Source: Malania oleifera
Taxonomy: Eukaryota > Streptophyta > Magnoliopsida > Santalales > Ximeniaceae
Length of the DNA: 64,000 nt
NCBI RefSeq assembly: GCF_029873635.1
Contig: NC_080422.1
Location: 8,897,764 to 8,961,763, forward strand
Direction of reading: 5' to 3'
Positions 8,591-59,659 of this stretch are shown piece after piece; position 1 is the stretch's first letter; each line of letters starts with the position of its first letter. Below the pieces are notes generated by a model, which worked only from the letters and a program-made list of their open reading frames with translations, was not told where the DNA came from and searched no databases. The position numbers and the translations under genes are program-made.

Positions 8591-9449
8591 ACATCGTGGA
8601 TCCTATAAGTTTTTTTTTTTCTTTTTTCTTTATAAATGGTATGTTGTAACACTACTACTACTACTATTATTATTATTATTATTATTATTGACAACTATAA
8701 ATAATTTGTGTATTATAGTAGGAGGGAGAATGTTAGGTTGAAAGGTGTAAATTATGTTAAATATAAAATTGCCTAATAAATTTACGCATCAAATCACTTG
8801 TCATGGATTCAACATTAAAACACTTTCACGTGTTGTCTCCCTCCTCTTTTTTCTATTTTTTTTTTACTTTTTTTAAAATATTTTTCTTGTTCATGGACCC
8901 ATAATATATCAAACTTTATGTTATTTCAACAAAATTACATACTTTTTCTTTTTTCTAAAACAGGTTATATTGTATCATCCATCAACATTACTATATTCTA
9001 CTTTTCAACATTTAGTTTTAATTCAATGTTTGAAAACTATTTGCATTTTTAAATCCTTTAAAAAAAATCTCTATTTAAATAATTGAAAAACAAATAAAAA
9101 TTTATTTTTAAATATGATTTCATTAGTCCTACAATATATTAAGCATATGCAATTTTTATTGGTGTCTCAATTTTTCCAAAAAAATTCTCAAGTAGATGCA
9201 ATGAAGGGTAGTATACCAAATATATACTTAAATATGTTATTTTAATTATCAGATATATTTATTTATTCTTTGATCCCTTTGAAATAAAAAAAGAGTAAGA
9301 AAATAATCGCATTTCTAATTGTAGTTTTATATATGTTCCAAAATCATATATTTCTTTGACTCATTAGAAAAAAAATAAAAAATAAAAAACCAATTATATT
9401 TTGAGAAATCACCAACTTAACGCCTAAAGACCAAGTTAAACATAAACCA
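8591..9449. repeat. old duplicate of dirigent upstream region (unit 0)
   Basis: It is collinear with 57899-58788 and with 36776-37720, which lie directly upstream of the two dirigent copies. The match starts at CATCGTGGATCCTATAAG and runs to ACCAAGTA. It has the same ACT/ATT microsatellite, CACGTGTTGTCTCC block and AT-rich tail. It lacks an 18-bp piece present in the other copies and differs by scattered substitutions, so it is the most diverged of the three. The left edge is cut by element C. The right edge joins LINE coding sequence directly, a duplication breakpoint. No gene follows. Confidence 0.8.
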
Positions 9450-10860
9450 AGTAAAGTGAGCAAAGATGAAATGGTTGATTGATGGTGATCAGAATTCAAA
9501 GTTTTTCCATGTTGTGATTATGCAAAAAGAAGCGTAACTCTTGTGTAAATTCAATGGTGCTTCTTGATGGTTCGGTGTTGGAAAATATGCAGATAGTCCA
9601 TGATGAGACTGTGAATTATTTTGAGCAATTTTTGAGGCAAAATAGTTTAGTGTAGAGGTCAAATCTGGACGGTATTATCCATTCAGTGGTTTCTGAGTCT
9701 ATTGGTCAATTGAGGGAAGAACCGATTGAGGAGGAGGTTTATAAAGCTATTTCTTCTATTTCTATAAATCGTAGCTCGGGACCGGATGGGGTTGGGTCTT
9801 CTTCTTATATTACCTATTGGAAGATTATTAAAAATGATGTGATGGATGCAGTAAGAGAATTCTTCAGAGGTGATATGTTGCCTCAGTATTTTTGTTCCTC
9901 TTTCATAGTGCTTATTCCTAAAGTAAAGGATCCTCAGTTTTTTGATAAATTTCGGCCGATGAGCCTTTGTAATGTAATCTATAAAATTTTCTCCAAAATC
10001 CTTATTGTTAAGCTTTCGTTGGTGATGTGTGATTTAATTTCTTTACACAAGGTGCTTTTGTGAAAGGGAGGAGTATTTTTGAAAATATTACGCTTGCTCA
10101 AGAGATGACAAAATTATTACATAGGCGGGTGAAAGGAAGTAATATAATACTAAAGTTTGATATGAGCAAAGCGTATGATTGAGTGGAGTGGCAGGTGGTA
10201 GATTAGATTTTCCATGATCTTGGTTTTTTAGATTGGGTTTGTAAGTTGATTCAGAATTGTATTTCTACTCCATGATTTTCTCTCATGATGCATGACACCT
10301 ATAGAGGTTTCTTCAAGTAAAACGGGGCTTAAGGCAAGGGGATCCATTGTTGCCGTATATTTTAATCATCATGGAAGAAGTTCTTTCTAAATTAATTCAA
10401 AAAAAGTTATGTGAGAAGCAGATTTTACCGCTTGCACATCCGTGTGGTGCACCTATTATATCACATTTTATGTACGCGGATGATGTTGTTATATTTGCTA
10501 ATGCTAGAAAAAAATATGTTCGATAGTTAATGGAAGTGATTAAGAAGTATCAAAACTGAACTGGCCAAAGGGTGAACAAAGATAAATCAGCTATTTTTTT
10601 CTCAAATAAGTTGGGTGTTTAGGAGAAGGGAGAAATTCTTCAAGAGACTAGTTTTATTGAAGGTAAATTTCTTTTTACGTACTTAGGTGTGCCAATAGTG
10701 GATGATAAATTGAAGGACTACCATTTTGATCCTTTAATTCAAAAAATCAGTAAGAGAGTTGAGGGCTGGAAAAGTAGACAATTGTCTCAAGGAGGTCGTT
10801 TTGTTTTGTTAAGACATGCGCTTTCGAGTATGTCTTTGCAAATGTCCCAAAGTTGGTGAT
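9450..10860 (+). pseudogene. LINE reverse transcriptase, 5'-truncated
   Basis: Starts inside ORF2 at KMKWLIDGDQNSKFFH, the linker motif that precedes the RT in plant LINEs. The open stretch 9686-10063 covers the first RT blocks: SSGPDGVGSSSYITYWKI, then VLIPKVKDPQFFDKFRPMSL. Further on come GAFVKGRSIFENI, KFDMSKAYD followed by a stop, the catalytic YADDVVIFAN near 10470, and FTYLGVPIVDDK near 10680. Several stops and frameshifts inactivate it. Endonuclease and ORF1 are missing. The 5' edge at about 9450 abuts the duplicated dirigent upstream region and not an ordinary target site. Confidence 0.9.
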
Positions 10861-12283
10861 AAAAAAGATACAATGTATGTTTGCTTCTTTTTTCTGGGGA
10901 TTTAAGGATGGAAAAGAAAAAATGAAATGGAGGGTTTGGAAGAAATTGTATGTTCCTGTGGAGGACGGGGCATAGGAGTAAGGGACATTTCAGAAGTGCA
11001 ACGGTCCTTGTTCATGAAGTTTGGTTGGCATTTTTTAACACAAAATTCTTTATAGGCTAAATTTTTGAAAGCTAAATATGTGAAAGGAGGACATATTACT
11101 CTTTGCAGACCTCGTGGATCGAATTCTTCCTTTTGGAGGAAAGTTCTGCAGCCTGAACTATTAAGCAAATCTAAGTGGAAGGTTAGAGAAGGAGATGTAA
11201 AATTGTGGTATGATAAGTTTCTAGATTTAGGACCTTTGTTTGCAGATTGTCCAGATGGTACTCATTCATATATCAGATTAAAAAGATTTGGTTATTAATA
11301 ATGTGTGGGATGTGAAAATTTTGTAGAGGATTCTGGGGTATAATAAAGCGGAAGAAGTGACGGAAAATGTGGGAAATCTTAGAAACTCTTCAGACATTCT
11401 GTTATGGCTCCCGAAAAAGGATGGTTGCTTTAATACAAAGTCTGCATGGGATGTTATCAGAGTTAGAACTCCAAAATTTGATTGGGCAAAGTGGGTATAG
11501 AATAAATGGTTACCGAAGAAAATTGCTATCTATATGTGAAAGACTGCTTTTGAGTGGTTAAGCGTTGATGAAAAGGTGAGAAGAGTGGAGGTTTCACTTG
11601 CTTGGGCATGTTATTGTTGTGAGATGAGGCAGCCGGAAGATATGGAGCATGTGTTAAATAAGGGAGACCTTACTAGTGAGGTTTGGAGGAAGGTTTCAGT
11701 GGAGGTAGGTGTACCTTTCATGAGGCAACAAAGTTGGAAAGAAAGAGTCCAAATGTGGTTTAATAGGGCTTCCAGATTTTCTCAATTGGGATCATTGATG
11801 GGTTTGATTTCTTATTTAGTAGTTTGGAGGCTGTGGAGAAGGAGATGCGTGGATAGAATGGATGGAAAATTGGAGAGTAGTATAGATGTGTGGCTTTCAA
11901 TTAAGTATTGGGTGGGGGGTTTTGTGTAGGAACATGACAGGAATGACTCAGTTAAAGGATGCTGATTTTTGGATATTGCAGAATCTGGAAGTGCAAATTG
12001 TAAATAAAAGAATTAAAACTATGCAATGTGTGAGATGACTAAAACCGAGGCAATGGAGGTCGAAACTAAATTTGGACAGGAACAGCTTGGGGAACACAGG
12101 GCCGACTAGTGGTGGTGGCATCCTTAAAGACCATACAAGTTCTTTTGTTTTTGGTTTTTCAAAATATTTAGGTTCTTATTCAAATAATGAAGCTAAATTG
12201 AGAGCTGTGTTGGTGGGAATAAAGATTTGCAAACATTTGGGCCATACTAGTATTGATATTAAATGTGATTCGAATATTGTAGT
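10861..12283 (+). pseudogene. LINE C-terminal region: zf-RVT and RNase H (first part)
   Basis: Continues the LINE. The zinc-binding RT-associated region runs from about 11040 to 11930, with WLPKK near 11510 and WLSVDEKVRRVEVSLAWACY near 11560. RNase H begins near 12070 with RNSLGNTGPTSGGGILKDH, followed by NNEAKLRAVLVGIK (catalytic Glu) and IKCDSNIVV (catalytic Asp). The first catalytic Asp region is poorly preserved. The domain stops at 12283 after the GTAGT target site, where element A is inserted. It resumes in the same direction at 35764. Confidence 0.88.
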
Positions 12284-14247: not shown

Positions 14248-15626
14248 CATGCAACGTTAATTTCCCAACCTAGATGACTGTCCTTCTCATCAACTGCCCC
14301 AGTTTCATCAACCCATGCTTTGATCTCAAGATGGTCTTTAAGACTCGGGACGAAACGTAGGCTTAGGGATGTAGGATTTCAGAATAAAAGGAAAACTAAG
14401 GCTCAACAATACCACCCCAAATAATGTTTTATGCCCCCAGTTCGAGTTGAGGCGCTATTGCAAGATGTTGACCGAACTTGTTATTTAAACAAGCTGCCTA
14501 CGTACCTTTTCAGGATCAGGTCATTACGTAGTTCAGACTCAGTATTGAGTCTGACAAATCATTAGAGACAACAACGTATACCTATCTGGTCAGGACTTTC
14601 ATTTGGACCGTAATGTAGGCTAAGGATATGGGTTAAAGAAGAAAGGAATTACATAAGGCTCAAAATCATCAATTTTATCAAGGGTAATTTGGTTAAAGAT
14701 CATATATGTAGTAAGTCCCTTATTCTCTTTCTTCTTCTTCCTGTTTTTCTTTTTTTTTTCTTTCCCTTTTAATCTTTTTTTCCTTCTTTTACTGCAACTT
14801 TTACTTTTTCTTTTATAAAGGAATCTTGACTTCATTTTCATTTGAACTTCAATTGAGACCAATCTTTTAAAAACTGCCCCAGTGTGGGGTGTGATCCTTT
14901 GACGGGTTAATCAAGAAATGAATCTTTCAGGCTCAAAAATGGTTTGCAAGGGATCTTCTTCTTTGACTTTCTTTTGGGTAGCAGAACAATGGCTTGCCAT
15001 CCTTTTGGTAATGACTATTGTCTCAAATGATTTGCCAAACGCTAAGGGGCCCAAACCCAGGTTGGATTTTTGATGATCTGACTTTTAAGAAAAAGCTGGT
15101 TTAATATTCAGGCTCAATTTGGTTAACAAATGGTAAATCATTGTTTGGGTTCTTTTTAGGGATAACTGGTCGGCCAAAGAGGGCCATCCATCATTTGATC
15201 AAAACATGAGTGATTAATTGATAGGAAATTATCATAACAGCGCAGCCACTTCGTTGAATTCCTTGGAAAGTTAAAAAAACTTCTTCATAACGTCTGAATT
15301 CAATGGTTGTTTCATCCTTTAACATCTCTTTCTAGCTCATGAACACTGGCAATATTACTTTCCTTATTCCGGCATGAAACATAAGCAAACAAAATTTGGC
15401 AACTAGACTTATGATGCAAGTGCGATAACGAAATGCATAATTCATTTTATTGAATATCGAAAATATTTCGAGGCACTGGCGTCCACGGATTACAAAAAGC
15501 AAATAAAAATGGAAAACAAAAGAACATTAACTGAAAAGGATTAGATAGTCAAAAGTTCGGTACTCCATCATTTTATCCTCAGTGGATAACAACTGAAACC
15601 ATTGATTTGAGAACCTCCTGGATATG
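14248..15626 (-). other. element A interior downstream of gag
   Basis: Non-coding in all frames I inspected. It is homologous, in reverse, to 27780-29110 of element B, including repeated ACTGGGGCAG-like motifs and pyrimidine tracts near 14720-14810. No protease or reverse transcriptase motif is present. The tandem-repeat part seen in B further downstream is deleted here. Confidence 0.7.
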
Positions 15627-17102
15627 TTAACCACTTCCTTCCTCGTTTTTGGGCAAAGGATTCCCCTGGACTCCCGGTTGCTTGTCGTCGAATGCTAACC
15701 ATCCAGCATCTCTTAATGATTGCACCTTATGCTTGAAGGCCCAACATCTGTCAATAGTATGGCCGGGAGAGTTAGCATGGTACTCACAACGAACCCCAGG
15801 ATCATACCACTGTGGAGGAAGGTTCGCAATGGGTGTCCCAGGGATTGCAGATACCATCCCCCTTTCCCGCAGCTGAGGAAATAATTCGGCATATGTCATG
15901 GGAATGGGGTCCACCCTTCGGAAGTTTCTAGTCACATTCCTATCTTGTGCTTGCTGATTCGGTGGACCAAAGTGAACAATCTGGGGCCTTGTGCCTGTAT
16001 GCACCATTTGATTTACCATGGGCTCAAAACCAAAGTTTCTCTTGGGCCATTGGTTCCCACCTCTGGTGTACTGATTCTTCCAATTAAATTGCCCCTGTAT
16101 CATTTGTGCCTCTTCCTCCTTCTTCCTATTAGTCCACCTTTTGCCTAAACCAGTTTCCGAGCCATTATCCTTGAGTAGGCCTGCCTTGATATCGCCTTCA
16201 ATTCTTCCTCCCGCAGCCACAATATCCATAAAATCGTGGGGCGTTGCTCCCCGAAGGTGCGTGCGGTAGGGGTCTTTTAATGTACTTACGAATAAGGAGA
16301 TAGCCTCTCGGTCACTCACCGGGGGGTCCACTTGGATTGACATATCTCTCCACCTGTAAGCATATTCTCTGAATATTTAGGTGGATTTCTTCTCCATTTC
16401 TTGTAGCATCATCCGATCAGGCACCATTTCTGTCACATGGCGGTAGTGAGTAACAAAGGCATTGGCCAAGTCCTTCCAAGTGCAGACCCGAGCCTTATCT
16501 TGCTGAATGTACCAACAGATAGTGGACCCAGTCAAACTGCTTTGAAAGCAATGCATCATTAATTTTTCATCGTCTAAGTACGCGGCCATTGCTTGGCAGT
16601 ACATCACTAAATGTGTTCGAGGGCACCGGGTCCTGTCAAACTTTTCAAAGTCTGGCATTTTGAACTTTGGCGGCAGGGTGACTTTAGGCACCAAGCAAAG
16701 GTCATTTGGATTAACTGAATCGAAAGTATTAGAACCTTCCATTGCTTTTAAGAGCTCTTCTAATACGTCACAGCGACGCTCAGCCTCGGATTTGCTGATC
16801 CCCATATCAGAAGGTACTAATGGAGGAGTTCCTACTACTGGGAACCCCTGTGCTGGCATAGCAGGGATGAAAGGAGGCATATTTGGCGGTGGACCCCCCA
16901 TAACACCAGGCGGTGGAATTAATGTTTGTCCATGATCTGGGGTGAACCCTGGGGGATGAGCGGGGTCCACATCTACTTCGGGATCAACATGCACTGCCTT
17001 TTCCTTGTTCATCAGTAACTTTAGAACCTTACTTATCTTGTCATTTATTTCTTCTTGTCCTTGTTCCAGACCCAGGACTCTATTTTCCAATTGTTCACTC
17101 AT
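15627..17102 (-). pseudogene. gag of element A (copy 1), one internal stop
   Basis: Two open stretches (16377-17102 and 15627-16343) form one gag of about 490 residues, split by a TAA at 16377-16379. The intact B protein reads straight through this point. Order: N-terminal heptad segment MSEQLENRVLGLEQGQEEIN; Pro-rich linker (PPPNMPPFIPAMPAQGFP); retrotransposon gag core with WKDLANAFVTHYRHV and FREYAYRWRDMSIQ; and a C-terminal knuckle CEYHANSPGHTIDRC followed by FKHKVQSLRDAGWL. That knuckle, Cys-x2-His-x5-His-x4-Cys, is the form I associate with Tat/Ogre-type Gypsy gag. The single stop could be a recent mutation. Frameshifts are absent, so decay is slight. Confidence 0.88.
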
Positions 17103-18965
17103 TTCTCTCGCTCTTCGCCTGGTATTGTACTGATGCGTGGTAGTCTCAATTATTGCTTTATGTTACTCAAACCACCTCTTTGATTAGGAACTGAAAACCA
17201 AAAAATTTCTTCTTAGAATCATGAATGCACAATTATGCATGAGTGAATGTGTTTTGATGCATGATTAGGGTATGCAATAAGTGTTTATGCATGGATGCAA
17301 CTAGTGCACTTTATATATACAAACAAAGATATGGATGTGCGTGAGACCCATCATGCATGACTATGTATGAAATGAAGTGCATGCATATGATGCAACCTAA
17401 ATGACAACTTAGCCAATATTCTAGAAAAATTCCACTAATGAGAGATTTCAAGATTAACATGACCACTGATGGGCCACGATTTCAATTCAAATCTTTCCTT
17501 AACCATTCCTTTCCTAATTAACGGTTCATGAACCTCAGGTTCTATGAAGGGTCAGATTATGTTCTGAGGTTGGGGTTGACCCAGGCTAGTCAACCCGTTG
17601 GATTCATTCAGTGTGGACTTGTGGACTTTAGTGTGCACTTGGGCCTCAAGTATTTTAAAATATGGGCTTCAACCTATTTCATGATGGGCTAAGGCCCTAG
17701 TTGAAAAGGAATTAGGCTTGGTTTACTTGAAAAAAATGTTGGCCCGAATTTTTAGGTGATAAAGCTGAAGCCCATTTTTGGAAATCTGGGTTTGACCCTT
17801 TTTGAAAATCATGTCTGGGCCGAATTTTTACTTAGGAAAATATCGGGCCTAGGTTTGTTTTTAGGCTTGGATTACTTGAAAAAATGTTGGTCCAAATTTT
17901 TAGGTGATAGGGCTGAAGCCCATTTTTGGAAATCTGGGTTTGACCCTTTTTGAAAATCATGTCTGGGCCGAGTTTTTACTTAGGAAAATGTCGGGCCTAG
18001 GTTTGTTTTTAGAGAACCGGGCCCGAGTTATTTGAAAAGAGTTGGGCCGACCCATATTTTAAAATACTTGGCCCAAGTGCTTTATTTTTATTTTTTTGAA
18101 AGGATGGGTCATGATCTCATTATTGGGCTTTTTCAGAATACTAACTAAGTAGTATGTATGTCTAAATGTATGTCAAATGCATGATATAATACAAAGTATT
18201 TCACAACATATATACAATAGACAACATGGGGATAAGGATGCCCCAACCCAGGGTAGATATGTATATACAGGGTTCGTCATGACACTATCCTAGTTAGGGA
18301 AGACTATAGACAAGTATGTGCGGGTAGGCTCTAACCCTATTAACAAAAGGTTCCCAGTTTGGAATTCCATCCTCCCCCATTAGGGTCCGGATAAAACCCA
18401 CACTGAGCGGAGTGGTTCGCGGGTCCCATCAAGCTTTGCCACGAAGGGACTGACGCTATTACACTCCTACCTAGTCCTAGTAAAGAAAGCTCGGGTATAG
18501 AGCGTGAGAGTATGTGAATTTAATTTTTAACCTAATCCCGCTACCCTCACATTTATTCACATGCTACAAACAATATGGAAACAAGATATCTACAATTAAT
18601 ATATATATTCAAAAGATAAGGAAACACAATATATGCAATTAATATGTTTATTCGCAAAAAATTTTGGAAACAAAAAATAAGGAAACAAAATATCGGTAAT
18701 TAAGATGCTTATTCAAAATATCTTACAATTAATATGCTTTATTCGGAATATTTGGAAACAAAATATCTACAATTAATATTAACAAAATTAGGAAACAAAA
18801 TATTTTTACTTAGGTAAGGTTATTTGTAAATTATGGAAGTAAAATATTTAAAACTAATCAAAGTTATTTACAGATTACAACATTCACAAAATAAGGAGTA
18901 ATTAAAAGATTTAATAAATTTAAACTTGGGATAATTTCTAATTAATTAATGGCTCGACTCTCTAA
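17103..18965 (-). other. element A leader, with a 149-bp tandem duplication
   Basis: This 1.9-kb untranslated leader lies between the primer site and the gag ATG. Positions 17714-17862 and 17863-18011 are two copies of a unit of about 149 bp rich in GGGCC-containing motifs (GGCCCGAATTTTTAGG, TCTGGGCCGAGTTTTTAC). The same doubling occurs in copy 2 near 52670-52970. No conserved frame is present. Short RY-like ATGCATG stretches lie at 17220-17400. Confidence 0.7.
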
Positions 18966-18984
18966 GTCCCCAGCGGAGTCGCCA
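18966..18984 (-). other. primer binding site of element A (copy 1)
   Basis: On the minus strand this is TGGCGACTCCGCTGGGGAC, three bases from the LTR edge at 18988. It is identical to the site in B. It is the primer type I recall for Tat/Ogre-lineage Gypsy elements (complementary to a tRNA-Arg 3' end; recalled, not searched). Confidence 0.8.
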
Positions 18985-20237
18985 AGCTGTCGCGACGTCC
19001 CGAGAGCGCGTGTGCTTCTGGCGGCGGAATTAAAATCATTTTAATATTTTCATGGAAAAACATGGAATGTCGGAGTCGCCACTAACCTTTTAGTGTGGTT
19101 AGAACACATGGTTACTACCCCGTTAGGGGTAGAATGGGTCTATGTTACCAGAGTTAGGCTCGGGAGTTCGGTTACACGAGAGGAAGGTACAAGCACCCCC
19201 TACGCATCCGTTCTTACGAACGGTACCTAATTAATTTGAAATTATCCCTAAGTTAATCTAATAAGTCTTTAAATTTCTCCTTTTTATGAATTTATAAATA
19301 TATATAAATAAATAAACGTAATACAATATATATACATATATTCCCTCAGAGCTTAAAGTACGTGATGCCCGAAGGCTCATACCCCCGCAATAAAATCATA
19401 AGGATTAAAAATCAATAAAATATCTAAGAAAATACGCTCCCAAATTTTGAAATTGTATATAAAATTTTTATAGGAAAATACTAGTATGGGAGGTTTTACT
19501 ATATATTAATAAGATAATAAGTTAAAATATTAAATTATCACAATGCATATAAAAATAGTAATGATAATAAGCATATCTGTTAAAATATTACAACTTTCAA
19601 AATAGGCAATAAAATACCATATGTATATATTAAAACACTCAAGATACTATACAAGGTAATACCATCTATAAAAAAAATGCCTTAATAAGTGAAACTAAAT
19701 AATAATTATACCATAATATTATATACAATATCATACTAAATATAATAGTAAAATATATACCAAAACACTAAACTTACCATAATGATTGATACCTTTATAT
19801 GTAAACATGATAAAATATTAGAATCCAAATACTAAATATCGGAAAATGTTAATATGAGTATAGATAACACATAAAGAAAACCCTAAGTAATTAAAATTGA
19901 ACATGCATCAACCATGAAAACCCTAAATAGCCCTAAACATATGGATTAAGTAAATAATTACAATAACTATTCTAGCTACATATTAAACATGCAACAATAA
20001 TATTAACAATCCAACGAATAAAATGAAATTAAACTTTAAATATCTAGACAAGTTCCGACTATAAAAATTCCGCACTCAAGAAAATTAACTTATTTGAATA
20101 ATACAATCAAAACTTACCCTGCGTATCAAAAATTAAAATGATTATAAAAATTATAAAAACCTATGTACCTGCATACGCAAAGAAAAAAAAAACAAAAATC
20201 AAGACATTAGATATTAGGACAAACCAAAACTAGCAAA

Positions 20238-20295
<58 letters not shown>

Positions 20296-20756
20296 TTAAC
20301 TAAATACTACCATAAATATTATATCAACGTACACACATACATAGCCTAGATATAAACATTAACTAAATATTACAGCAAATAATGTATTAATATACATATA
20401 TACACATAGCCTATATGCAAATATTTAACTAAAAGCTACAACAAGTATTATATTAATATACACACACAAAATACCACAGTAGATATTATTTTAATACATA
20501 CCCACATGCAAATAAGAGAAAAGAGAAAAAAAATAAAAATAAAAACTTGAGCTTTAAAACTTAAAATAAAACCAATATACTTATATATATAAACCCAATT
20601 AAATGTATATAAAAAAAATTAAGCTTTACATGTATATGCATATATATATAGACATGTATATGTACCTACAAAAGTAAGCAACAATGTTAGTGTCTCCAAA
20701 ACAAATAAAGATGTAAAATAAATAAATAAACAAGTAAATAAAAATAAAACAAAATT

Positions 20757-20876
20757 CATGTGTGTGACAGTGTGTGTGCTGTGTGTGTGTGCAGTGTGTG
20801 TGCTGTGTGTGTGCGTTTCTGTGTGTGCTGTGTGTGTGTGTTGCTGTGTGTGTGTGCTGTGTGTGTGTGCGTGTGC
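20757..20876. repeat. interrupted GT microsatellite in A LTR
   Basis: Runs of GT broken by CTGTGTG and CAGTGTG steps. The same interrupted pattern occurs at 14008-14130 and 55717-55845 in the other A LTRs, with small length differences. The His/Thr-rich open frames over these blocks are an artefact of CACACA repeats. Confidence 0.85.
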
Positions 20877-20922
20877 ACAAATATAGGGAGGCAGGGACTC
20901 ACTGTGGGATGGTTCTGAGGTC

Positions 20923-22005: not shown

Positions 22006-22013
22006 TATATAAG
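22006..22013 (+). promoter_or_regulatory. TATA box of B LTR
   Basis: TATATAAG in the context TTTTTTTATATAAGGGGG, about 70 bp upstream of the first exon-like module. The A LTR has its TATA box in the corresponding place, which supports it as the element promoter. Confidence 0.65.
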
Positions 22014-22075
22014 GGGGCCATAGCCAAGCCAAAGGAGGAGGCACAGACCAAAGAAAGAAAAATCTTACCTTGCAG

Positions 22076-24364: not shown

Positions 24365-24507
24365 CCGTTCTTGAGAACGGGCGCGTAGGGGGTGCTCGTA
24401 CCTTCCCCTCGCGTAACCGAACTCCCGACCCCAACTCTGGTAATGTAGACCGATTCTACCCCTAACGGGGTAGTAATCATGTGTTCTAACCGCACTAAAG
24501 GTTAGTG
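24365..24507 (+). other. three stem-loops near the 3' edge of the LTR
   Basis: CCGTTC-TTGA-GAACGG (24365-24380), CTACCCCTAACGGGGTAG (24456-24473) and CACTAA-AGG-TTAGTG (24493-24507) are perfect inverted repeats in a row. The same three stems, in reverse, occur in the A LTRs (for example 19208-19223 and 54164-54179, whose loop is TTAC, not TTGA). Stems kept while loops change hints at RNA structure in the transcript leader or 3' end. Function is unknown. Confidence 0.6.
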
Positions 24508-48500: not shown

Positions 48501-50578
48501 TAGATAATGCATGACATGCATGACAAGGCATGAGATGAATGTTAATGCAGGAAGATGGCATATATGAATCTAGTACTACATGAAATGTATGACAATGCAG
48601 AACTTTGGGGTAATGCATGACAAGCATGATCTTTATAAAGCACTCGATCAATGTCCTATATTTGGCTAACATGAAAAATGAACACTCGCCATATTTGGGA
48701 ATAGATCTGTAACGATATGGGCTTAATTTATTTTTCATCTAGTCATGAAAAGGATGACTAGCTTCAACAAAATCACAAAATTTGCACAGGTGAATGGACC
48801 TACAGATGATCTTGACTTGATTTCTATTCAAATCGGAGAAGAAAGTGCTTTGCAATGGGACCTTACTGAGGACTCAACTCGGATTTGCATAATTAAATTC
48901 ATCGCCATCCATCTTGACTCTATTATGGTTTCCTTTTGAACTTGACAGAACATGTGCCCTAGTTTGACTGCTTTTCTACACAAGATTCTCGTTTATAGAA
49001 ATTTCTGGTGATCTGAAAATCTGTTGACTATCTATACTCTTTGCATGCCTCTAAGAATAAGAAGGGTTCCCTTTTTTTTTTGTTGTGATTTTAAGGACGA
49101 GACATGATTAGCAACTATAAACATCACTGCAAATCAAAAGGCCCATCAACAAACTAAATGTTTTCATGTTTCAATGCTATCATAGGGAAAAAATTCATAC
49201 CAAGTCTTCAAAGTATATTGCAACCCGGTAATTACAACCTAGAGTGACTGTCTTCTATAAACTGCCCCTCCAGTTTATCAACCCATGCTTTGATCAGATG
49301 GTCTGTAGACTCGGACAGAAAAGTTAGGCCTTTGGGATGTAGGATTCAAATTTAAAAGGGGAAAAATAAAAAAGGGTAACAAGACCACCCAAATAATGTT
49401 CTGCCCCCAGTCGAGTTGAGGCGGTCATGCAAGATGTTGGACCGAAAACTTGTTATTTAAAACAAGCTCATAAGTACCGTTCAGGATCAGGTCATACGTA
49501 GTAGACCGTATTGAGTCTGACAATCATAGAGACACAAAACGTATCCTATTTGTCAGGACTTTCATTTGGCCGTTAATGTAGGCTAAGGATATGGGTTTGT
49601 TAACGAAGAAAGGAATTTTTAAATAAGGATCAATCAATATTTATCAAGGGTACATTTGGTTAACGCTCGTTAAAGATAATATAGGTAGTAAGTCCCTATT
49701 ATCTTTCTCTTCTTCCTGTTTTTTGTTTTTTTCTTTCACTTTAATCTTATTTTCCTTCTTTATGACAACTTACTTTTTCTTGTATAAAGGAATCTTTGAC
49801 ATCATTTCATTTGAACATTCAATTGAGACCAAATCTTTTAAAAAACTGCCCCGTGTGGGGCCCCCCCCCCTTCCGACGACCGCCACATTGGACGGACCTC
49901 GTCCCATCAAGAATGAATCTTTTAGGCTCAAAACTGGTTTTGCAAGGATTTTTCTGAGTTCTTTGGGTAGTCAGAAAAATGGTTGCCATCTTTTGGGTAA
50001 TGATCTTGTCTCAAATGATTGGCCAAAGAAGGGGCCCAAACCCAGTGGATTTTTGATATCTGATTTAAGAAAAAACTGGTTAAATAGGCCAATTTGGTAA
50101 AAATGGTAAATCCATTGTTGGGTTATTTTAGGGTAACTGTCGGACAAAGGGGCATCATCATTTGATAAAACATGGTGATAATGATAGGAAATACATAACA
50201 GCGCAGCCACTCGTTGAATCATTGGAAAGGTAAAAAAACTTCGTTCATAACGTCTGAATTAATGATGGTGTTTAATCCTTTAACAATCCTTGTAGTCAGA
50301 ACACTGGCAAATATTACTTTCCCTATTCCGGCATGAAACATAAGCAAAACAAATTGCAAATAGGACTGATGAGCAAGTGAGGATAACGAAATGCATAAGT
50401 CATTTTATGAATATCGAAAATATTCCGAGGGCACTGGCATCCACGGATTACAAAAAGCCAAATACAGAAAACAAAAGAACATTAACGAAAGGATTATGAT
50501 AGTCAAAATTTCGGTACTCCATCTTTATCCTCAGTGGATAACAACTGCAACCATTGATTTGAGAACCTCCTGGATATG
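48501..50578 (-). other. element A (copy 2) interior downstream of gag (noisy)
   Basis: Starts with a reverse copy of the CATGCAT array, then continues collinear with the reverse of 28000-29900 and with 14260-15620. It has many indels and a stray C run at 49861-49872. Non-coding. Confidence 0.65.
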
Positions 50579-52059
50579 TTAACACTTCCTTCCTCCCCCC
50601 CATTGTTTGGGGCAAAGGCTTCCCCTGGCTCCCGGTTCTGTCGTCGAATGAATAACCATCCAGATATTTAAGGATTGCACCATTATGATTGAAGGCCCAC
50701 ATTGTCAATAGTGTGGCAGGGAGAGTAGCAATGTACTCACAACGAACCCCAGGACTCAACACGGCGGAAGGTTCGAAATGGGTGTCCCAGGGGGAGGCCA
50801 AATACCATCCCCTGGTCCCGCAGCTAAGAAATAATTCTGCATATGTCATGGGATGGGGGTCCACCTTGGAAGTTCTAGCCACCCCTATTCTTGTGCTTGC
50901 TGAGTCGGTGGAACAGATTGAAACAATCTGGGGTCTTGTGACTGTAGGCACCGTTTAATTTACCATAGGCTAAAAACCAAAGTTTCTCTTGGGCCATGGT
51001 TCCCCACCTCTGGGGTGTACTGGATCTTCCAATATTAAACTGACCCTGTATCATTTGTTGCTCTCCTCCTCTTCCGATTAGTCACCTGTTGCCACCCTAA
51101 ACCAGTTTCCGAGCCATGTCCTTGACTTGCGGCCTGATATGACCTTCAATTCTCCTCCGCAGCCACAAATCCATAAATAGGGGGAGGGGGGGAGTTGCTC
51201 CCCGAAGGTGCGTGCGGTAGGGGTCTTTTTAATGTTACCCCCCCCCCCCTTAACGAACAAGGAGAGAGCCTCTCGGTCACTCACCGGGGGGTCCACTGTG
51301 ATTGACATATCTCACCGTAAGCATATGCATCTGCATTATTTAGGTGGAGTCTCTCCATTTCTTGATTGAGCATCTCGGATCAGGGCAACATTCTTTAACA
51401 TGAGGTAGGGTAGGTGCGTAACAAAGGCATGGTCCAATTCGTCCAATAAGTGCGGACCCAGAGCCTTATCTTGCTGAATGTACCAACAGATAGTGGACCC
51501 AAGTCAATGCTTTGAAGCATGCATCAGTAATTTTTGATCGTGAGTACCGCGGGGCATTGCTTGGCAGACATCACTACTAAATGTGTTAGAGGGGAACCGG
51601 GTCTGTCAAACTTTTCAAAGTCTGGCATTTTGAACTTGGCGGCGGTGACTTTAGGCAACAAAGAAAAGGTCATTGACTAATGAATCGAAAAGATTAGAAC
51701 CTTACATGCTTTTAAGAGCTCTTCTAATACGTACAGCGACACGATCAGGTAGATTTGTGATCCCATATCAGAAGTTAATAATGGAGGAGTTCTACTAATG
51801 GGACACCCCTTGTGCTGCCTAGAAGGATGAAAGGAGGCATATTTGGCGGGGGAACCATGACACCAGGCGGGGTGAAGGGAATTAATGTTGGTCCATGATA
51901 TTGGGTGAACCAGGGGGATGCGCGGGGTCCACTCTACTTCGGGCTCAACATGCAGGCTTCCTTGTTCATTCGTAACTTAGAAAAACTTACTATCTTGTCA
52001 TTTATTTCTTCTTGTCCTTGTTCTAGACCCAGGACTCTATTTTCCAATTGTTCACTCAT
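50579..52059 (-). pseudogene. gag of element A (copy 2), frame scrambled
   Basis: Collinear with 15627-17102. Recognisable pieces include DPHPMTYAELF (near 50840) and MSITVDPPVSDREALSLFVK (near 51300). Numerous one-base indels and inserted runs of C or G (51180-51250) break the frame. From about 51990 toward the start codon the sequence is suddenly clean. I attribute much of the damage to poor consensus. True state unknown. Confidence 0.7.
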
Positions 52060-53921
52060 TTCTCTCGCTCTTCGCCTGGTATTGTACTGATGCGTGGTAG
52101 TCTCAATTATTGCTTTATGTTACTCAAACCACCTCTTTGATTAGGAACTGAAAACCAAAAAATTTCTTCTTAGAATCATGAATGCACAATTATGCATGAG
52201 TGAATGTGTTTTGATGCATGATTAGGGTATGCAATAAGTGTTTATGCATGGATGCAACTAGTGCACTTTATATATACAAACAAAGATATGGATGTGCGTG
52301 AGACCCATCATGCATGACTATGTATGAAATGAAGTGCATGCATATGATGCAACCTAAATGACAACTTAGCCAATATTCTAGAAAAATTCCACTAATGAGA
52401 GATTTCAAGATTAACATGACCACTGATGGGCCACGATTTCAATTCAAATCTTTCCTTAACCATTCCTTTCCTAATTAACGGTTCATGAATCTCAGGTTCT
52501 TTGAAGGGTCAGATTATGTTCTGAGGTTGGGGTTGACCCAGGCTAGTCAACCTGTTGGATTCATTCAGTGTGGACTTGTGGACTTTAGTGTGCACTTGGG
52601 CCTCAAGTATTTTAAAATATGGGCTTCAACCTATTTCATGATGGGCTAAGGCCCTAGTTGAAAAGGAATTAGGCTTGGTTTACTTGAAAAAAATGTTGGC
52701 CCGAATTTTTAGGTGATAAAGCTGAAGCCCATTTTTGGAAATCTGGGTTTGACCCTTTTGAAAATCATGTCTGGGCCGAATTTTTACTTAGGAAAATATC
52801 GGGCCTAGGTTTGTTTTTAGGCTTGGATTACTTGAAAAAATGTTGGTCCAAATTTTTAGGTGATAGGGCTGAAGCCCATTTTTGGAAATCTAGGTTTGAC
52901 CCTTTTTGAAAATCATGTCTGGGCCGAGTTTTTACTTAGGAAAATGTCGGGCCTAGGTTTGTTTTTAGAGAACTGGGCCCGAGTTATTTGAAAAGAGTTG
53001 GGCCGACCCATATTTTAAAATACTTGGCCCAAGTGCTTTATTTTTATTTTTTTGAAAGGATGGGTCATGATCTCATTATTGGGCTTTTTCAGAATACTAA
53101 CTAAGTAGTATGTATGTCTAAATGTATGTCAAATGCATGATATAATATAAAGTATTTCACAACATATATACAATAGACAACATGGGGATAAGGATGCCCC
53201 AACCCAGGGTAGATATGTATATACAGGGTTCGTCATGACACTATCCTAGTTAGGGAAGACTATAGACAAGTATGTGCGGGTAGGCTCTAACCCTATTGAC
53301 AAAAGGTTCCCAGTTTGGAATTCCATCCTCCCCCATTGGGGTCCGGATAAAACCCACAATGAGCGGAGTGGTTCGCGGGTCCCATCAAGCTCTGCCACGA
53401 AGGGACTGACGCTATTACACTCCTACCTAGTCCTAGTAAAGAAAGCTCGGGTATAGAGCGTGAGAGTATGTGAATTTAATTTTTAACCTAATCCTGCTAC
53501 CCCCACATTTATTCACATGCTATAAACAATATGGAAACAAGATATCTACAATTAATATATATATTCAAAAGATAAGGAAACACAATATATGCAATTAATA
53601 TGTTTATTCGCAAAAAATTTTGGAAACAAAAAATAAGGAAACAAAATATCGGTAATTAAGATGCTTATTCAAAATATCTTACAATTAATATGCTTTATTC
53701 GGAATATTTGGAAACAAAATATGTACAATTAATATTAACAAAATTAGGAAACAAAATATTTTTACTTAGTTAAGGTTATTTGTAAATTATGGAAGTAAAA
53801 TATTTAAAACTAATCAAAGTTATTTACAGATTACAACATTCACAAAATAAGGAGTAATTAAAACATTTAATAAATTTAAACTTGGGATAATTTCTAATTA
53901 ATTAATGGCTCGACTCTCTAA
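52060..53921 (-). other. element A (copy 2) leader (clean)
   Basis: Near-identical to 17103-18965; I count about 17 differences over roughly 1.95 kb around here. It includes the 149-bp tandem duplication. Non-coding. Confidence 0.75.
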
Positions 53922-53940
53922 GTACCCAGCGGAGTCGCCA
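53922..53940 (-). other. primer binding site of element A (copy 2)
   Basis: Same site as 18966-18984 with one mismatch, three bases from the LTR edge at 53944. Confidence 0.75.
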
Positions 53941-53943
53941 AGC

Positions 53944-55191
53944 TGTCGCGACGTCCAGGGAGCGCGTGTGCTTCTGGCGGCGGAATTAAAATCATTTTAA
54001 TATTTTCATGGAAAAACATGGAATGTCGGAGTCGCCACTAACCTTTTAGTGTGGTTAGAACACATGGTTACTACCCCGTTAGGGGTAGAATGGGTCTATG
54101 TTACCAGAGTTAGGCTCGGGAGTTCGGTTACACGAGAGGAAGGTACAAGCACCCCCTACGCGTCCGTTCTTACGAACGGTACCTAATTAATTTGAAATTA
54201 TCCCTAAGTTAATCTAATAAGTCTTTAAATTTCTCCTTTTTATGAATTTATAAATATATATAAATAAATAAACGTAATACAATATATATACATATATTCC
54301 CTCAGAGCTTAAAGTACGTGATGCCCGAAGGCTCATACCCCCGCAATAAAATCATAAGGATTAAAAATCAATAAAATATCTAAGAAAATACGCTCCCAAA
54401 TTTTGAAATTGTATATAAAATTTTTATAGGAAAATACTAGTATGGGAGGTTTTACTATATATTAATAAGATAATAAGTTAAAATATTAAATTATCACAAT
54501 GCATATAAAAATAGTAATGATAATAAGCATATCTATTAAAATATTACAACTTTCAAAATAGGCAATAAAATACCATATGTATATATTAAAACACTCAAGA
54601 TACTATACAAGGTAATACCATCTATAAAAAAAATGCCTTAATAAGTGAAACTAAATATTAATTATACCATAATATTATATACAATATCATACTAAATATA
54701 ATAGCAAAATATATACCAAAACACTAAACTTACCATAATGATTGATACCTTTATATGTAAACATGATAAAAGATTAGAATCCGAATACTAAATATCAGAA
54801 AATGTTAATATGAGTATAGATAACACATAAAGAAAACCCTAAGTAATTAAAATTGAACATGCATCAACCATGAAAACCCTAAATAGCCCTAAACATATGG
54901 ATTAAGTAAATAATTACAATAACTATTCTAGCTACGTATTAAAAATGCAACAATAATATTAACAATCCAACGAATAAAATGAAATTAAACTTTAAATATC
55001 TAGACAAGTTCCGACTATAAAAATTCCGCACTCAAGAAAATTAACTTATTTGAATAATACAATCAAAACTTACCCTGCGTATCAAAAATTAAAATGATTA
55101 TAAAAATTATAAAAACCTATGTACCTGCATACGCAAAGAAAAAAAAAAACAAAAATCAAGACATTAGATATTACGACAAACCAAAACTAGC

Positions 55192-55252
<61 letters not shown>

Positions 55253-56619
55253 TTAACTAAATACTACCATAAATACTATATCAACGTACACACATACATA
55301 GCCTAGATATAAACATTAACTAAATATTACAGCAAATAATGTATTAATATACATATATACACATAGCCTATATGCAAATATTTAACTAAAAGCTACAACA
55401 AGTATTATATTAATATACACATACAAAATACCACAGTAGATATTATTTTAATACATACCCACATGCAAATAAGAGAAAAGAGAAAAAAAATAAAAATAAA
55501 AACTTGAGCTTTAAAACTTAAAATAAAACCAATATACGTATATATATAAACCCAATTAAATGTATATAAAAAAAAAATTAAGCTTTACATGTATATGCAT
55601 ATATATATAGACATGTATATGTGCCTACAAAAGTAAGCAACAATGTTAGTGTCTCCAAAACAAATAAAGATGTAAAATAAATAAATAAACAAGTAAATAA
55701 AAATAAAACAAAATTCATGTGTGTGACAGTGTGTGTGCTGTGTGTGTGTGTGCAGTGTGTGTGCTGTGTGTGTGCGTTTCTGTGTGTGCTGTGTGTGTGT
55801 GTTGCTGTGTGTGTGTGCTGTGTGTGTGTGCATGTGCGCAGATATAGGGAGGCAGGGACTCACCGTGGGATGGTTCTGAGGTCCTGGGGGCTGGTGTAGG
55901 TGTCGCCGGGACTGGAGAAGTTGGCCGGAGAGTTTGGGTGCTCTGGCAGTTCTGCTGTGCTGGCCGTGGAGCTTGGCTGCGGCTGTGGTGCCTGGCCGGA
56001 GTTGTAGAGGTGGTGCGGTTGCAGGGGCTGGCCAAGGATGACCGGAGAAGGCTGGCCGCGAGGTATTCGGGTCCTGGAGTGGTGGTAGACGATGGGAGAG
56101 TTGCCGAGGGAACTCTTGGCTGTGGTGGCCGGTTTGAGTTGCAGAGGACCTGGAGGATGACTGTGTGATGGCCGGATGGCTGGAGGGTTGCAGCGTCCTG
56201 GTGTGGCCGTAGCTGGAGCATGATATGGAGGAGGGGCTATGGGGTTGAGTGAAGAAAGAAGCAAAGGAAGAAGAAGAAGACGAAGAGGAGGAAGAAGAAG
56301 AATGCTTTTTTTTTTTGGTCTTCTGTGCTGCGCCGGCTGTGCCCCTATGTGTGCTTGGCCTCTCCTCTTATAAAAGAATTTTTTTGAAAACCCTAGAAAG
56401 AATTTCCTTTTTTGATTTTATTTTTGTCTTTTCTTTTTTTTTATTCTTTTATTTCTATGGTAATAATGAAAAAGGAAATAATAATAATAATAATAATAAT
56501 TATCATAATAATATAAGTATCCATAAGATAATAATAATAAAGATAATACTACTATTAATAGTAAATAATAATAAATAATTATGGTAAGAAAAAAATAATA
56601 ATAAAGATATTATCAGTAA

Positions 56620-56652
<33 letters not shown>

Positions 56653-56680
56653 AATAAAAATAGAGTAATAATACAAAAAG

Positions 56681-56714
<34 letters not shown>

Positions 56715-56902
56715 AAAATTAAAAAATATACCCAAAATAATAGTAAGGTAACACTAATTATAATACTAGTAATGAACAATAATAAATAATACAAATAATT
56801 ATAAGAAAATAATAATAATAAAAATAAGGTAATAATAATAATAATATAATGAGAAGGGACTCCTTTGTTCTATTTGGTTAGGGCAAAAATAGGGTGTCTA
56901 CA
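53944..56902 (-). mobile_element. element A (copy 2) 5' LTR, uninterrupted
   Basis: Complete 2,959-bp LTR from TGTCGCGACG to GGTGTCTACA, followed by GTAGT at 56903-56907. It serves as the empty-site reference for the B insertion in copy 1, because B is absent at the corresponding point near 56545. It contains a long AAT tract (55194-55252), the GT block (55717-55845), the proline-rich frame and a minus-strand TATA box (56368-56375). Confidence 0.9.
55860..56264 (-). other. proline-rich exon-like frame in A LTR (copy 2)
   Basis: 134 codons on the minus strand, MLLSSLNPIAPPPYHAPATA to DLRTIPR. The stop lies inside a perfect GTGAGT donor-like site (55861-55866). The ATG is about 105 bp downstream of the LTR TATA box. 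TATA box, short leader, long GC-rich open frame, strong donor, then a T/A-rich and CA-rich tract: this is the layout of a first coding exon. Rich in Pro, Ser, Thr and Ala; no domain recognised. Copy 1 differs by substitutions that mostly keep the frame open. Coding is unproven. Confidence 0.4.
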
Positions 56903-57440
56903 GTAGTAAAATGGATAAAATCTAGTAAGTGCTCGTTGTAGTATTTGTGAGATTTTTGGGAGTAGCTTATTGGTTTATTGGAGGGAGCAAACTTTTTGAT
57001 AAATCATTGGTATAGAGAAGGGAACAAAGTGGCAAATGTCTTGGCTCGACAAGGTGCGATGGGGAGGAATAGTTTGTTTACCAATGGAGTCAACTCCCTA
57101 GAGTTATCAATGATTTGTATAAACTGGAGAAGATGAGTACGACGTATATGAGGTATGTTTAGCTGATTTCCTATTGGTTTTGGTTTATACTTTATATTGT
57201 TTATCTTTTGTTTGTTTTGTTGCGTGAGGTTTGTTTTGTAGGTCCTTGTTTTGTTTTGTTTTATTTGGACTTGTACCCCTGTTTTGGCTGGTTGTTGGTG
57301 TTGTTTTTTGGGAGGGCTTTTTAAAGTTGTCTTTTGTTTCTCCTATTGATTGTCTTGTAACCACGGTATTTCTCCGCCAAAAGTGAGGGTTTATCAATAA
57401 ATAAATAGAGGTGCCGCCCTTCTTCTTTAAAAAAAAAAAA
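56903..57440 (+). pseudogene. LINE copy 2, right part: RNase H end, 3' UTR, poly-A
   Basis: Reads VVKWIKSSKCSL, then after two stops LIGLLEGANF and HWYREGNKVANVLARQGAMG, ending at the stop in INWRR. This is the C-terminal part of a plant LINE RNase H; the usual VAD near the end is VAN here. The 3' UTR and a run of A at 57429-57440 follow. It is the clean equivalent of 35764-36317. Confidence 0.85.
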
Positions 57441-57612
57441 TTGTTATTCTATTGTGCAATCTTTCCAAATGAAAATATTGGGACGAATGCATCTTTCTAT
57501 TTTAATTTCTTGCTATTTTAATTTTAACCAGTGAGATGAAATACAATAAGTAAATCAATTCTAATCCTCTTTTCCCTTCTCCCTTATATCACAATCTAAA
57601 ATTCAAACATAG

Positions 57613-57652
<40 letters not shown>

Positions 57653-57955
57653 TTGGCTCGACATTCTCAACCAAATTTCAATTTTAACTAGTGTTGTGAA
57701 ATATATATAAATTATTCTAATTCTTTCGTACTTTCAATGTGGGACAAAGGTTTATGAAGAATTTTTCCCTCTTTTATATTATAGTTAAAACTCAGTATTT
57801 ATATGTATATATATACAATGTCTGCATAATATTAACATGCAAGAGTATATTTCATAATCTAATTTGTTGCACATTTTTTTATTGACAAAGTATCGTGCAT
57901 CGTGGATCCTATAAGTTTTTTTTTTTCTTTTTTCTTTATAAATGGTACGTTATAA

Positions 57956-57993
<38 letters not shown>

Positions 57994-59074
57994 TTATTAT
58001 TATTATTATTGACAGCTATATATAATTTGTGTATCATAGTAGGAGTGAGAATGTTAGGTTGGAAGCTCTAAATTATGTTAAACATAAAATTGACTAATAA
58101 ATTTACGCATCAAATCGATTATCATGGATTTAACATTAAAACACTTTCACGTGTTGTCTCCCTCCTCTTTTTTCTATTTTTTTTTTTACTTTTTTTAAAA
58201 TATTTTTCTTGTTCATGGACCCATAATATATCAAACTTTATGTTATTTCAACAAAATTACATACTTTTTCTTTTTTCTAAAACGGGTTATATTGTATCAT
58301 CCATCAACATTACTATATTCTACGTTTCAACATTTAGTTTCAATTCAATGTTTCAAAACTATTTGCATTTTTGAATCCTTTAAAAAAAAAAAATCTCTAT
58401 TTAAATAATTGAAAAACAAATAAAAATTTATTTTTTAAATATGTTTTCATTAGTCCTACAATATATTAAGCATATGCAATTTTTATCGGTGTCTCAATTT
58501 TTCCTAAAAAATTCTTAAGTAGATGCAATGAAGGGTAGTGTACCTAATACTTAAATATGTTATTTTAATTATCAGATATATTTATTTATTCTTTGATCCC
58601 TTTGAAATAAAAAAAGAGTAAGAAAATAATCGCATTTCTAATTGCAGTTTTATATATGTTCCAAAATCATATATTTCTTTGACTCATTAGAAAAAAAAAT
58701 AAAAATAAAAAACCAATTGCAGTAACTGGTGCAATTATATTTTGAGAAATCACCAACTTAACTCCTAAAGACCAAGTTAAACATAAACCAAGTAGAGGCT
58801 ACAAATTAAATTTACGTAGTTTTCTTCCACAAATTATGCCCCGCACCTTTTTTCTATTTTCATAAATCTCCCTTTTGTACCATATAAATCTTTCTCTCGA
58901 TTTGTCTCCCTTGCAAATCTAATAAAATTCTTTAATTGGCCGCCCTTAATTGCCATGAACCATGCGTGCTGAATCCACACGGCTCCTCTCCTTGTATAAG
59001 AAGCGAGAACAGAGCTAATACATGCACACTTCTCCTCCTCCACCTCCTCCTTCTTCTTCTTGTGATAATTGAAA
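57441..59074 (+). promoter_or_regulatory. upstream region of the intact dirigent gene
   Basis: 1.6 kb of AT-rich sequence with a TA dinucleotide run (57616-57648), an ACT then ATT microsatellite (57957-58010), a CACGTG core (58148-58153, G-box-like) and a CT-rich leader just before the ATG (59029-59062). Most of it exists in three copies in the window. The part next to the ATG (from 58789) exists only in the two copies that carry gene sequence. Confidence 0.6.
58995..59000 (+). promoter_or_regulatory. TATA box of dirigent gene
   Basis: TATAAG in CCTTGTATAAGAAG, 75-80 bp upstream of the ATG and conserved in copy 1. The distance leaves room for a start site about 30 bp downstream and a short CT-rich leader. 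Confidence 0.55.
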
Positions 59075-59659
59075 ATGGGATCTACAGATACTTCCAACAT
59101 TAACACAACCCTTGCTCTGTTCTTCATCTTTCTTTCTCTGTGTTCAGTCTCCTCCCAAGGCAAGTTCTTGGGCGAAAAGCAGCAGCGGGAGCCATGCAAT
59201 AACTTGACTTTCTACATCCACGACATTCTGTACAACGGCTCCAACGCTGGGAACGCGACTTCGGCGATCGTGGCGGCGCCAGAGGGCGGCAACCTCACGA
59301 CGCTGGCGAAGCAGAACCATTTCGGGAACATTGTGGTGTTCAACGATCCGTTGACGAAGAACAACGATCTGAGGGCGGAACCGGTGGGAATGGCGCAGGG
59401 GTTCTACCTGTACGACAACAAAGACACTTTCACGGCGTGGTATGGCTTCACGATTGTGCTGAACAGCACGGAGCACAGAGGGACCCTGCAGCTCATGGGG
59501 GCCGACCCCATCCTGGTGAAAAGCAGGGATTTGTCGGTGGTGGGGGGCACCGGCGACTTCTTCATGACCCGGGGAATTGCTACTCTCATCACAGATTCGT
59601 TTGAGGGGGAGGTGTACTTCCGGCTGCAGATTGACATCAAGCTTTATGAGTGTTGGTGA
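59075..59659 (+). CDS. dirigent-like protein, intact, intronless
   Basis: 194 residues from the ATG at 59075. A possible TTG six bases earlier is not needed. Residues about 12-27 are a hydrophobic signal peptide (TLALFFIFLSLCSVSS), so the protein is secreted to the apoplast. The mature part is one dirigent domain: FYIHDILYNG (Asp50), NATSAIVAAP, HFGNIVVFNDPLT, MGADPILVKSRDLSVVGGTG, then FFMTRGIATL and EGEVYFRLQIDIKLYECW. Cys41 and Cys193 fit the disulfide known in the family. Five N-glycosylation sequons are visible (Asn43, 54, 60, 73 and 130). Dirigent proteins steer stereoselective coupling of phenoxy radicals in lignan and related pathways; the exact substrate cannot be read from sequence. 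No introns, usual for the family. The coding sequence is markedly GC-richer than its surroundings. Confidence 0.93.
   Translation: MGSTDTSNINTTLALFFIFLSLCSVSSQGKFLGEKQQREPCNNLTFYIHDILYNGSNAGNATSAIVAAPEGGNLTTLAKQNHFGNIVVFNDPLTKNNDLRAEPVGMAQGFYLYDNKDTFTAWYGFTIVLNSTEHRGTLQLMGADPILVKSRDLSVVGGTGDFFMTRGIATLITDSFEGEVYFRLQIDIKLYECW

Follow-up and report, generated by a model that had tools for sequence, protein, structure and literature searches.

Is the dirigent locus of Malania oleifera a true tandem array, or has the assembly set one locus beside itself? The question is raised by a 64,000-nucleotide stretch of NC_080422.1 (C6:8897764-8961763, within a 1.49-Gb assembly), which at its full length we call the window. 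A preliminary description of the window had recognized a tandem series of at least three copies of the region upstream of an intact dirigent gene, with a long interspersed nuclear element (LINE) and a nested Gypsy element in the repeated unit. Our preferred reading, to which we give a probability of roughly 0.68, is that of a true dirigent array with a LINE in its unit, while the two large blocks of the window, at 9-38 kb and 38-59 kb, are two versions of one unit set end to end. The overall picture is one of ordinary biology, a tandem array rich in transposable elements, plus an assembly overlap. The analysis covers 332 kb of C6 read without a break (8697764-9029763, the window included) and 9121764-9124563.

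Upstream copies and the assembly gap in the window

The dirigent upstream region (D) and the elements that surround it are arranged in the window as follows (LTR, long terminal repeat; ORF, open reading frame; TSD, target-site duplication).

8592-9453, plus strand: D1, a truncated copy of the dirigent upstream region, from self-alignment; its left border is a copia LTR that ends at 8591
9454-12279, plus strand: part of a LINE ORF2 with reverse transcriptase, zinc-binding domain and first half of ribonuclease H (RNase H), from Pfam
12284-35763, minus strand: Gypsy-type element of the left block, inserted in the LINE's RNase H part; TSD GTAGT; right LTR interrupted by X
21594-35405, plus strand: X, a young gag-bearing LTR element of 13.8 kb inside the Gypsy right LTR; gag PF03732, E=2.1e-10
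36318-38017, plus strand: D2 of the left block, in an apparently unpolished contig end, from comparison with the right block
38018-38111, plus strand: start of a dirigent ORF, its first 94 bp, cut by the contig end; tblastn matches at 38012-38104 and 38059-38118, frame-shifted
38121-38220, no strand: scaffold gap of 100 N (C6 8935884-8935983)
38221-52000, no strand: apparently unpolished start of the right contig, with a LINE part, the Gypsy left LTR and much of the Gypsy internal part
53941-56902, minus strand: Gypsy right LTR of the right block, with an empty X site, from self-alignment
56903-57440, plus strand: LINE 3' end with A-tract and the rest of RNase H; RVT_3 profile positions 102-122 at 56966-57133, E=0.035, weak
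57441-59074, plus strand: D2, the upstream region of the intact dirigent gene, from self-alignment
59075-59659, plus strand: intact single-exon dirigent gene of 194 amino acids; PF03018, E=4.3e-37

With 127.5 bits against the curated PF03018 cut-off of 29.1, the intact gene is a member of the Dirigent family, and its closest solved relative is pea DRR206 (PDB 4rev), a dirigent protein, whose chain is matched by residues 36-194 at E=2.2e-72. Self-BLAST of the window returns three upstream copies, all on the plus strand as had been described. D1 matches 57898-58794 (92.1% identity over 901 columns of the self-alignment; 25 substitutions and 14 indel events in 856 aligned columns) and 36777-37721, and the blocks 35404-38111 and 56548-59166 are homologous to one another on the plus strand. 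Matches of this kind, hundreds to thousands of bases long, are far above chance. The same LINE with the same nested Gypsy element does precede both downstream copies: the LINE 3' end is the same, and the 5-bp TSD GTAGT lies at the same LINE base, at 12279-12283 for the left end of the element and at 35764-35768 (left block) and 56903-56907 (right block) for the right ends. The Gypsy sequence shared by the blocks (14910-21593 and 49906-56553) is 93.7% identical. X is found in the left block only, and the right block shows the empty site around 56547. Both downstream copies had been said to lead into dirigent coding sequence, and both do, but the middle one continues only for about 94 bp, from the ATG at 38018 to about 38111, and is followed by 9 unmatched bases and then by a gap that had gone unseen.

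The sequence on both sides of this gap is laden with errors. Where both blocks are clean (17272-21423 against 52230 onward), they differ by 49 substitutions in about 4152 columns (1.18%; 31 transitions and 18 transversions) and by 5 indels, column counts being coordinate lengths and a microsatellite tail being excluded both here and at the end of the left block. The corresponding counts are 130 substitutions (27 transitions, 103 transversions) and 251 indel events in about 3006 columns for 49235-52229, 37 substitutions (5 and 32) and 122 indel events in 1241 columns for 38221-39743, and 23 substitutions (7 and 16) and 124 indel events in about 2351 columns for 35760-38111 against the right block. 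The start of the right contig (38221-39743 and 49235-52229) has 83-98 indel events per kb and a transition:transversion ratio of 0.16-0.26; for the error zones altogether the values are 53-98 and 0.16-0.44. These zones comprise 35.4-38.1 kb and the right contig to about 52.0 kb wherever a clean partner existed (43.2-49.2 kb had no clean partner), and 39957-43160 shows the same error type. Their edge at about 52,000 is sharp, with 8-18 differences per 100-base bin in 51000-51999 and 0-3 in 52000-53499. When the comparisons are pooled, the error zones differ from the clean side (the clean zone, D1 against 57898-58794, and the two Gypsy LTRs) in transition:transversion ratio (Fisher p=9e-15) and in substitution:indel ratio (p=7e-25). 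From the error type we infer that the noisy zones are unpolished ends of long-read contigs. Dating of the block split by the left LTR of the right block was dropped because 39.7-43.1 kb is too error-laden.

The two contig ends also dovetail. The right contig opens at 38221 with a base that aligns to 11040, and the left contig's final matching base, 38111, has its counterpart at 59166; therefore both ends cover the same unit. The dovetail alone is not decisive, since a gap within a genuine tandem repeat would give a like overlap.

A tandem dirigent array on the wider scaffold

The preliminary description had proposed a search of the wider scaffold for further dirigent copies, and seven gene places are found there. 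Nine of the 46 matches listed for the genome with the dirigent hidden Markov model fall on C6 at 8.72-9.12 Mb, all on the plus strand, and they merge into gene places spaced about 17-106 kb apart (match starts at 8723224, 8816556 with 8816852, 8851074, 8956961, 9024826, 9106820 with 9107012, and 9123954). The only two N runs in the 332 kb, each of 100 N (8833605-8833704 and 8935884-8935983), delimit contig L, which ends at 8833604, contig M (8833705-8935883) and contig C2, which begins at 8935984. These contigs hold the following units.

L1, contig L: D1 from 8810823, LINE, D2 and a gene at 8816433 with a frameshift
Ms, contig M: begins within the Gypsy LTR; X, D2 and an intact gene at 8850951, whose protein is 100% identical to that of the window gene
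M2, contig M: LINE with another LTR element, D2; the gene is gone except for about its last 26 bp
M3, contig M, the left block of the window: D1, LINE, Gypsy, X, D2 and the start of a gene (8935781)
C2f, contig C2, the right block of the window: intact gene at 8956838
M2', contig C2
R1, contig C2: D1 at 9018843, LINE without Gypsy, D2 and an intact gene at 9024703

The array is proven by the genes at 8956838 and 9024703, because both lie in one N-free stretch. They are intact and different (85.6% amino acid identity) and lie 68 kb apart, so that, barring unmarked misjoins, a gap-free stretch contains at least two paralogous genes on the same strand. LINE-bearing units recur over 215 kb, mostly 3.5-7% apart, and the unit consists of D1 / LINE - A-tract - D2 - gene. 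The tandem array of the preliminary description is thereby borne out.

Over the LINE3-D2-gene segment, distances among the clean units are 3.53% (L1-Ms), 3.60% (L1-C2f), 5.28% (L1-R1), 3.70% (Ms-R1) and 3.74% (C2f-R1); M2 is 6.10-6.94% from the four clean units, and Ms and C2f are 0.18% apart (5/2742). Over the LINE5 segment, the distances are 1.27% (M2-M2'), 3.09% (M3-R1) and 5.15% (L1-M3). MAFFT distances that involve the unpolished M3 (LINE3-D2-gene) or C2f (LINE5) are inflated and were dropped, and site-agreement counts were used instead. The gene at 8723101 is array-like from about 100 bp before its ATG (79.8% DNA identity over 702 columns); 8697764-8740000 around it contains no LINE match and one further D match of 36 bases. 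The gene near 9124 kb is distant (59% amino acid identity), and the 2.1 kb read upstream of it contains neither LINE nor D matches.

Several other observations concern the array and its surroundings. The dirigent copy of L1 (C6:8816433-8817013) is frameshifted after about residue 145. M2 (C6:8878789-8879737) retains most of D2, and at 8879490 it joins the gene's last bases and 3' flank. At C6:8896529-8897232, 532-1235 bases left of the window and in the flank of an array unit, lies a fragment of an SF3B1-like splicing factor in overlapping frames (8896858-8897232 against PDB 6en4_C, E=5.8e-42; HEAT repeat at 8896529-8896906), which is probably a pseudogene. C6:8968343-8991188 is an apparent LTR-internal-LTR-internal-LTR structure of one family, with 12.7 kb repeated at 99.1%, present as far as read in the right contig only. 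Two more large dirigent clusters occur in the genome, at C5:4.90-5.43 Mb and C2:148.49-148.69 Mb.

Probable versions of one unit on either side of the gap

For the two blocks of the window, two versions of one unit are likelier than two tandem neighbours. We favour false neighbours because of the gap, the unpolished tips on both of its sides, the clean divergence of 1.18%, the presence of X opposite its empty site, and the collinearity of the contigs. The 1.18% was measured on Gypsy sequence and the 3.5-7% between units on LINE3-D2-gene, and the two figures refer to different regions. For about 62-68 kb the order of contig M recurs in contig C2, interrupted mostly by LTR elements found on one side only, a pattern that haplotypes display. 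The first two collinear pieces are 99.2% identical, with 32 substitutions between 8848419-8857151 and 8954311-8963047 and 31 between 8857148-8861349 and 8963563-8967764. Pieces of 8882057-8890515 and 8991191-8999712 are 88.6-98.3% identical, all identities of such pieces being BLAST values that depend on the BLAST cuts. The 19.5 kb of 8890510-8910043 and 9002956-9022531 differ by 422 substitutions in all. The first 3 kb contain a single one and the following 3 kb contain 22; from there on the density is 14-43 per kb, the divergence climbing at about 8896.5 kb. This mosaic agrees with a pair of haplotypes from an outcrossing plant, and conversion among tandem copies could produce it too.

Site agreement was used to place M3. 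At the 40 LINE sites where M3 and R1 differ, C2f agrees with M3 at 33 and with R1 at 3 (other at 3, gap at 1). M3 agrees with Ms at 45 of the 47 sites that separate Ms from R1 (with R1 at 2), and at 76 of the 78 that separate Ms from L1 (with L1 at 1, gap at 1). Of the 17 Gypsy-LTR sites that distinguish M3 from C2f, Ms has the M3 state at 14 (other at 2, gap at 1), and at the 5 D2 sites where Ms and C2f differ, M3 sides with each at 2 and has another state at 1. These counts make Ms, M3 and C2f versions of a single unit, with X present in both Ms and M3. Grouping by the four X LTRs of Ms and M3 was given up, there being too few clean differences.

Most likely, the window's blocks are haplotypes, with and without X, of one unit; we infer this allelic status and, below, the order of the rearrangements. 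Of the proposed series of at least three, the array stands, and what is not supported, given the gap, the unpolished ends, the 1.18% and the presence of X in one block only, is the treatment of 36-38 kb and 57-59 kb as two tandem copies. Haplotypes joined by the assembler, which the preliminary description had itself named as the outcome that would overturn it, are nearly what the two blocks show, whereas the third, X-bearing version speaks in its favour.

Some points weigh against the preferred reading. Within contig M, the unit occurs twice with X, at a distance of 85 kb (genes 8850951 and 8935781), and together with the X-less one this makes three versions, more than the two alleles of a single-copy locus; the unit may therefore be truly duplicated in cis, unless the count reflects polishing in a multicopy element, or a ploidy or sample that is not simple. 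The divergence between M and C2 is very uneven: one stretch of 3 kb has a single substitution, and short pieces reach about 10%. Both alleles and gene conversion between copies could account for this. The D1 copies of M3 and R1, counted as different units, are only 1.75% apart.

The alternative that survives best is that unequal crossing-over between array units has recently produced a genuine tandem duplication of about 85 kb, comprising the unit, M2 and the spacer. Ms and M3 would then be the duplicate pair, and C2f, which lacks X, would be either an additional copy or allelic to one of the two. We consider the chances of this alternative slightly short of even. It is compatible with the preferred reading of the M3/C2f pair, and the likelihoods of the two need not add up to one. 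Ms and M3 lie in one N-free contig, and their X sequences are 0.24% apart across 10.4 kb, with spread differences that amount to 25 substitutions and 5 indels, including a 19-bp repeat unit; the Gypsy-LTR sites pair the same two versions, and the rise of M/C2 divergence at about 8896.5 kb is what a crossover between paralogous flanks would give. However, the ends of the left contig overlap each other, as they would if the assembler had looped through paralogs that differ by a few per cent. The X differences between Ms and M3 could be products of polishing in a young multicopy element, and the 5 D2 sites lend the pair no support. More tentatively still, the array may be growing even now by unequal crossing-over, with an old D|LINE fusion founding the units and a very recent 85-kb duplication carrying X, so that there would be at least three versions, differing between haplotypes in X and in copy number.

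It is unlikely that everything is as assembled, with the remainder of the middle gene and a spacer hidden in the gap and with all units as neighbours in cis. The array is real, and the order and orientation of the scaffold agree with such a view, but it leaves unpolished tips on both sides of the gap, a low divergence where both blocks are clean, and a right contig that repeats the left one in the same order. A haplotype artefact as the whole of the finding can be dismissed, since the wider scaffold holds other, clearly paralogous units.

The junction at 9453, nested elements and known systems

A direct junction between D1 and LINE coding sequence at about 9450 had been reported as a breakpoint that no transposon explains. 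The junction is real: D1 meets LINE ORF2 directly after 9453, and M3, R1 and L1 have the join in common, with the same few filler bases. The join predates the split of these three units. In M2 and M2', the LINE runs on 5' past the join point, in M2 in one open frame (ORF 8860217-8860441), and further 5' in M2 is a stretch (8859616-8859828; Exo_endo_phos, E=0.017, below cut-off) whose motifs we take to be endonuclease-like. Because the LINE reads through in M2, the join is a rearrangement and not the LINE's own end, in keeping with the original claim. All six aligned units, M2 included, have their LINE|D2 border at one common position, although the A/T tract varies and is T-rich in M2, and since the border coincides, one LINE insertion is assumed for all six. 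The join probably originated either as the novel join of a tandem duplication or by a deletion between neighbouring units. In a tree of the D1 and D2 copies, D1 of M3 and D1 of R1 pair with good support (99.4/99), and the D1 copy of L1 is nested among D2 copies; a single origin of D1 is therefore not supported by the tree.

LINEs are frequently 5'-truncated, and the junction was also considered as the 5' end of a truncated insertion flanked by D1 and D2 as an unusually long TSD. Passages of one study report duplications of more than 1 kb flanking inserts of the L1 element (not our unit of that name) in repair-deficient human cells (PMC5223499). We rejected this as very improbable for the present junction, through which M2 and M2' read; M2 has LINE sequence 5' of the junction point and the LINE|D2 border at the same place, which contradicts truncation unless its extra 5' LINE arrived by later recombination with another LINE.

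Under the preferred reading, a LINE would have inserted once upstream of an ancestral dirigent gene. A later rearrangement, a tandem duplication or a deletion between units, would have fused gene-upstream sequence at window position 9453 to the interior of LINE ORF2. Units bearing the D|LINE join (L1, the window's unit and R1) would then have spread, each gathering its own LTR elements, and scaffolding would finally have placed two versions of one unit end to end, with their contig tips unpolished.

In the LINE ORF2 part, the RVT_1 matches (10305-10523, E=7.7e-6; 10033-10179, E=0.0018) and zf-RVT (E=8.3e-5) are below the curated cut-offs and RVT_3 (E=5.5e-9) is above; a Pfam search of 9656-10060 gave no match, although this part reads like LINE reverse transcriptase. 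The Gypsy element splits the RNase H domain, with RVT_3 profile positions 8-79 before it and, weakly (E=0.035), 102-122 after it. In the left block, the Gypsy left LTR and adjoining internal part are shortened at 14247/14250, and the left and right LTRs differ by 20 substitutions of 1955. The gag ORFs of this element gave no gag match in the Pfam search, and its type was assigned because it is homologous to the gag region of X (16197-17851 and 27239-25609, 78.8%). The LTRs of X differ by 14 substitutions in 2999 columns, and its TSD is CTACT/CTGCT. Satellite-like arrays of 66 bp and 73 bp occur in the X internal part and an array of 188 bp in the X LTR (window 30683-32129, 22088-22955).

The copia LTR that borders D1 belongs to a further feature.

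5452-8591, minus strand: remnant of a copia-type LTR retrotransposon; integrase ORF 5452-5934 (PF00665, E=6.6e-12); 5' LTR at about 8275-8591

We take CTCTGATACCA at 8261 to be its primer-binding-like motif, and the LTR borders are likewise presumed. A second copy of its LTR was sought in 1-8274, which returned just 12-14-base matches. The sequence at 475-2152 was considered as the downstream part of another dirigent gene and rejected; it is taken as an LTR family because its match at 60160-61827 is closely followed by a copia-like primer-binding motif (61859) and by a copia gag.

A gene array laden with transposable elements is easily over-counted, and if the pair of blocks is allelic, a count taken straight from the scaffold is too high for the dirigent genes of this locus. 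As a marker, the shared D|LINE breakpoint helps to order the duplications. Should the 85-kb duplication be true, the copy number of a gene family linked to lignans and defence would have changed very recently.

Plant dirigent genes form tandemly expanded clusters, and the present locus is like them in having several same-strand dirigent genes within about 400 kb. It is unlike them in that its unit has a shared LINE and a shared breakpoint, with nested LTR elements between the genes where read. In passages of the Vertebrate Genomes papers (PMC8081667, PMC9516828), the signature of false duplication is a gap between tandem copies, an overlap at the contig boundary of about read length, and differing consensus quality. 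The window has a scaffold gap at 38121-38220 and differing consensus quality at the contig boundary. It resembles the heterotype and homotype false duplications of those passages in the gap between copies, the dovetailed ends, the low end quality, and a divergence of about 1% with structural differences. It differs from them in lying inside a true tandem array, where part of the similarity is biological.

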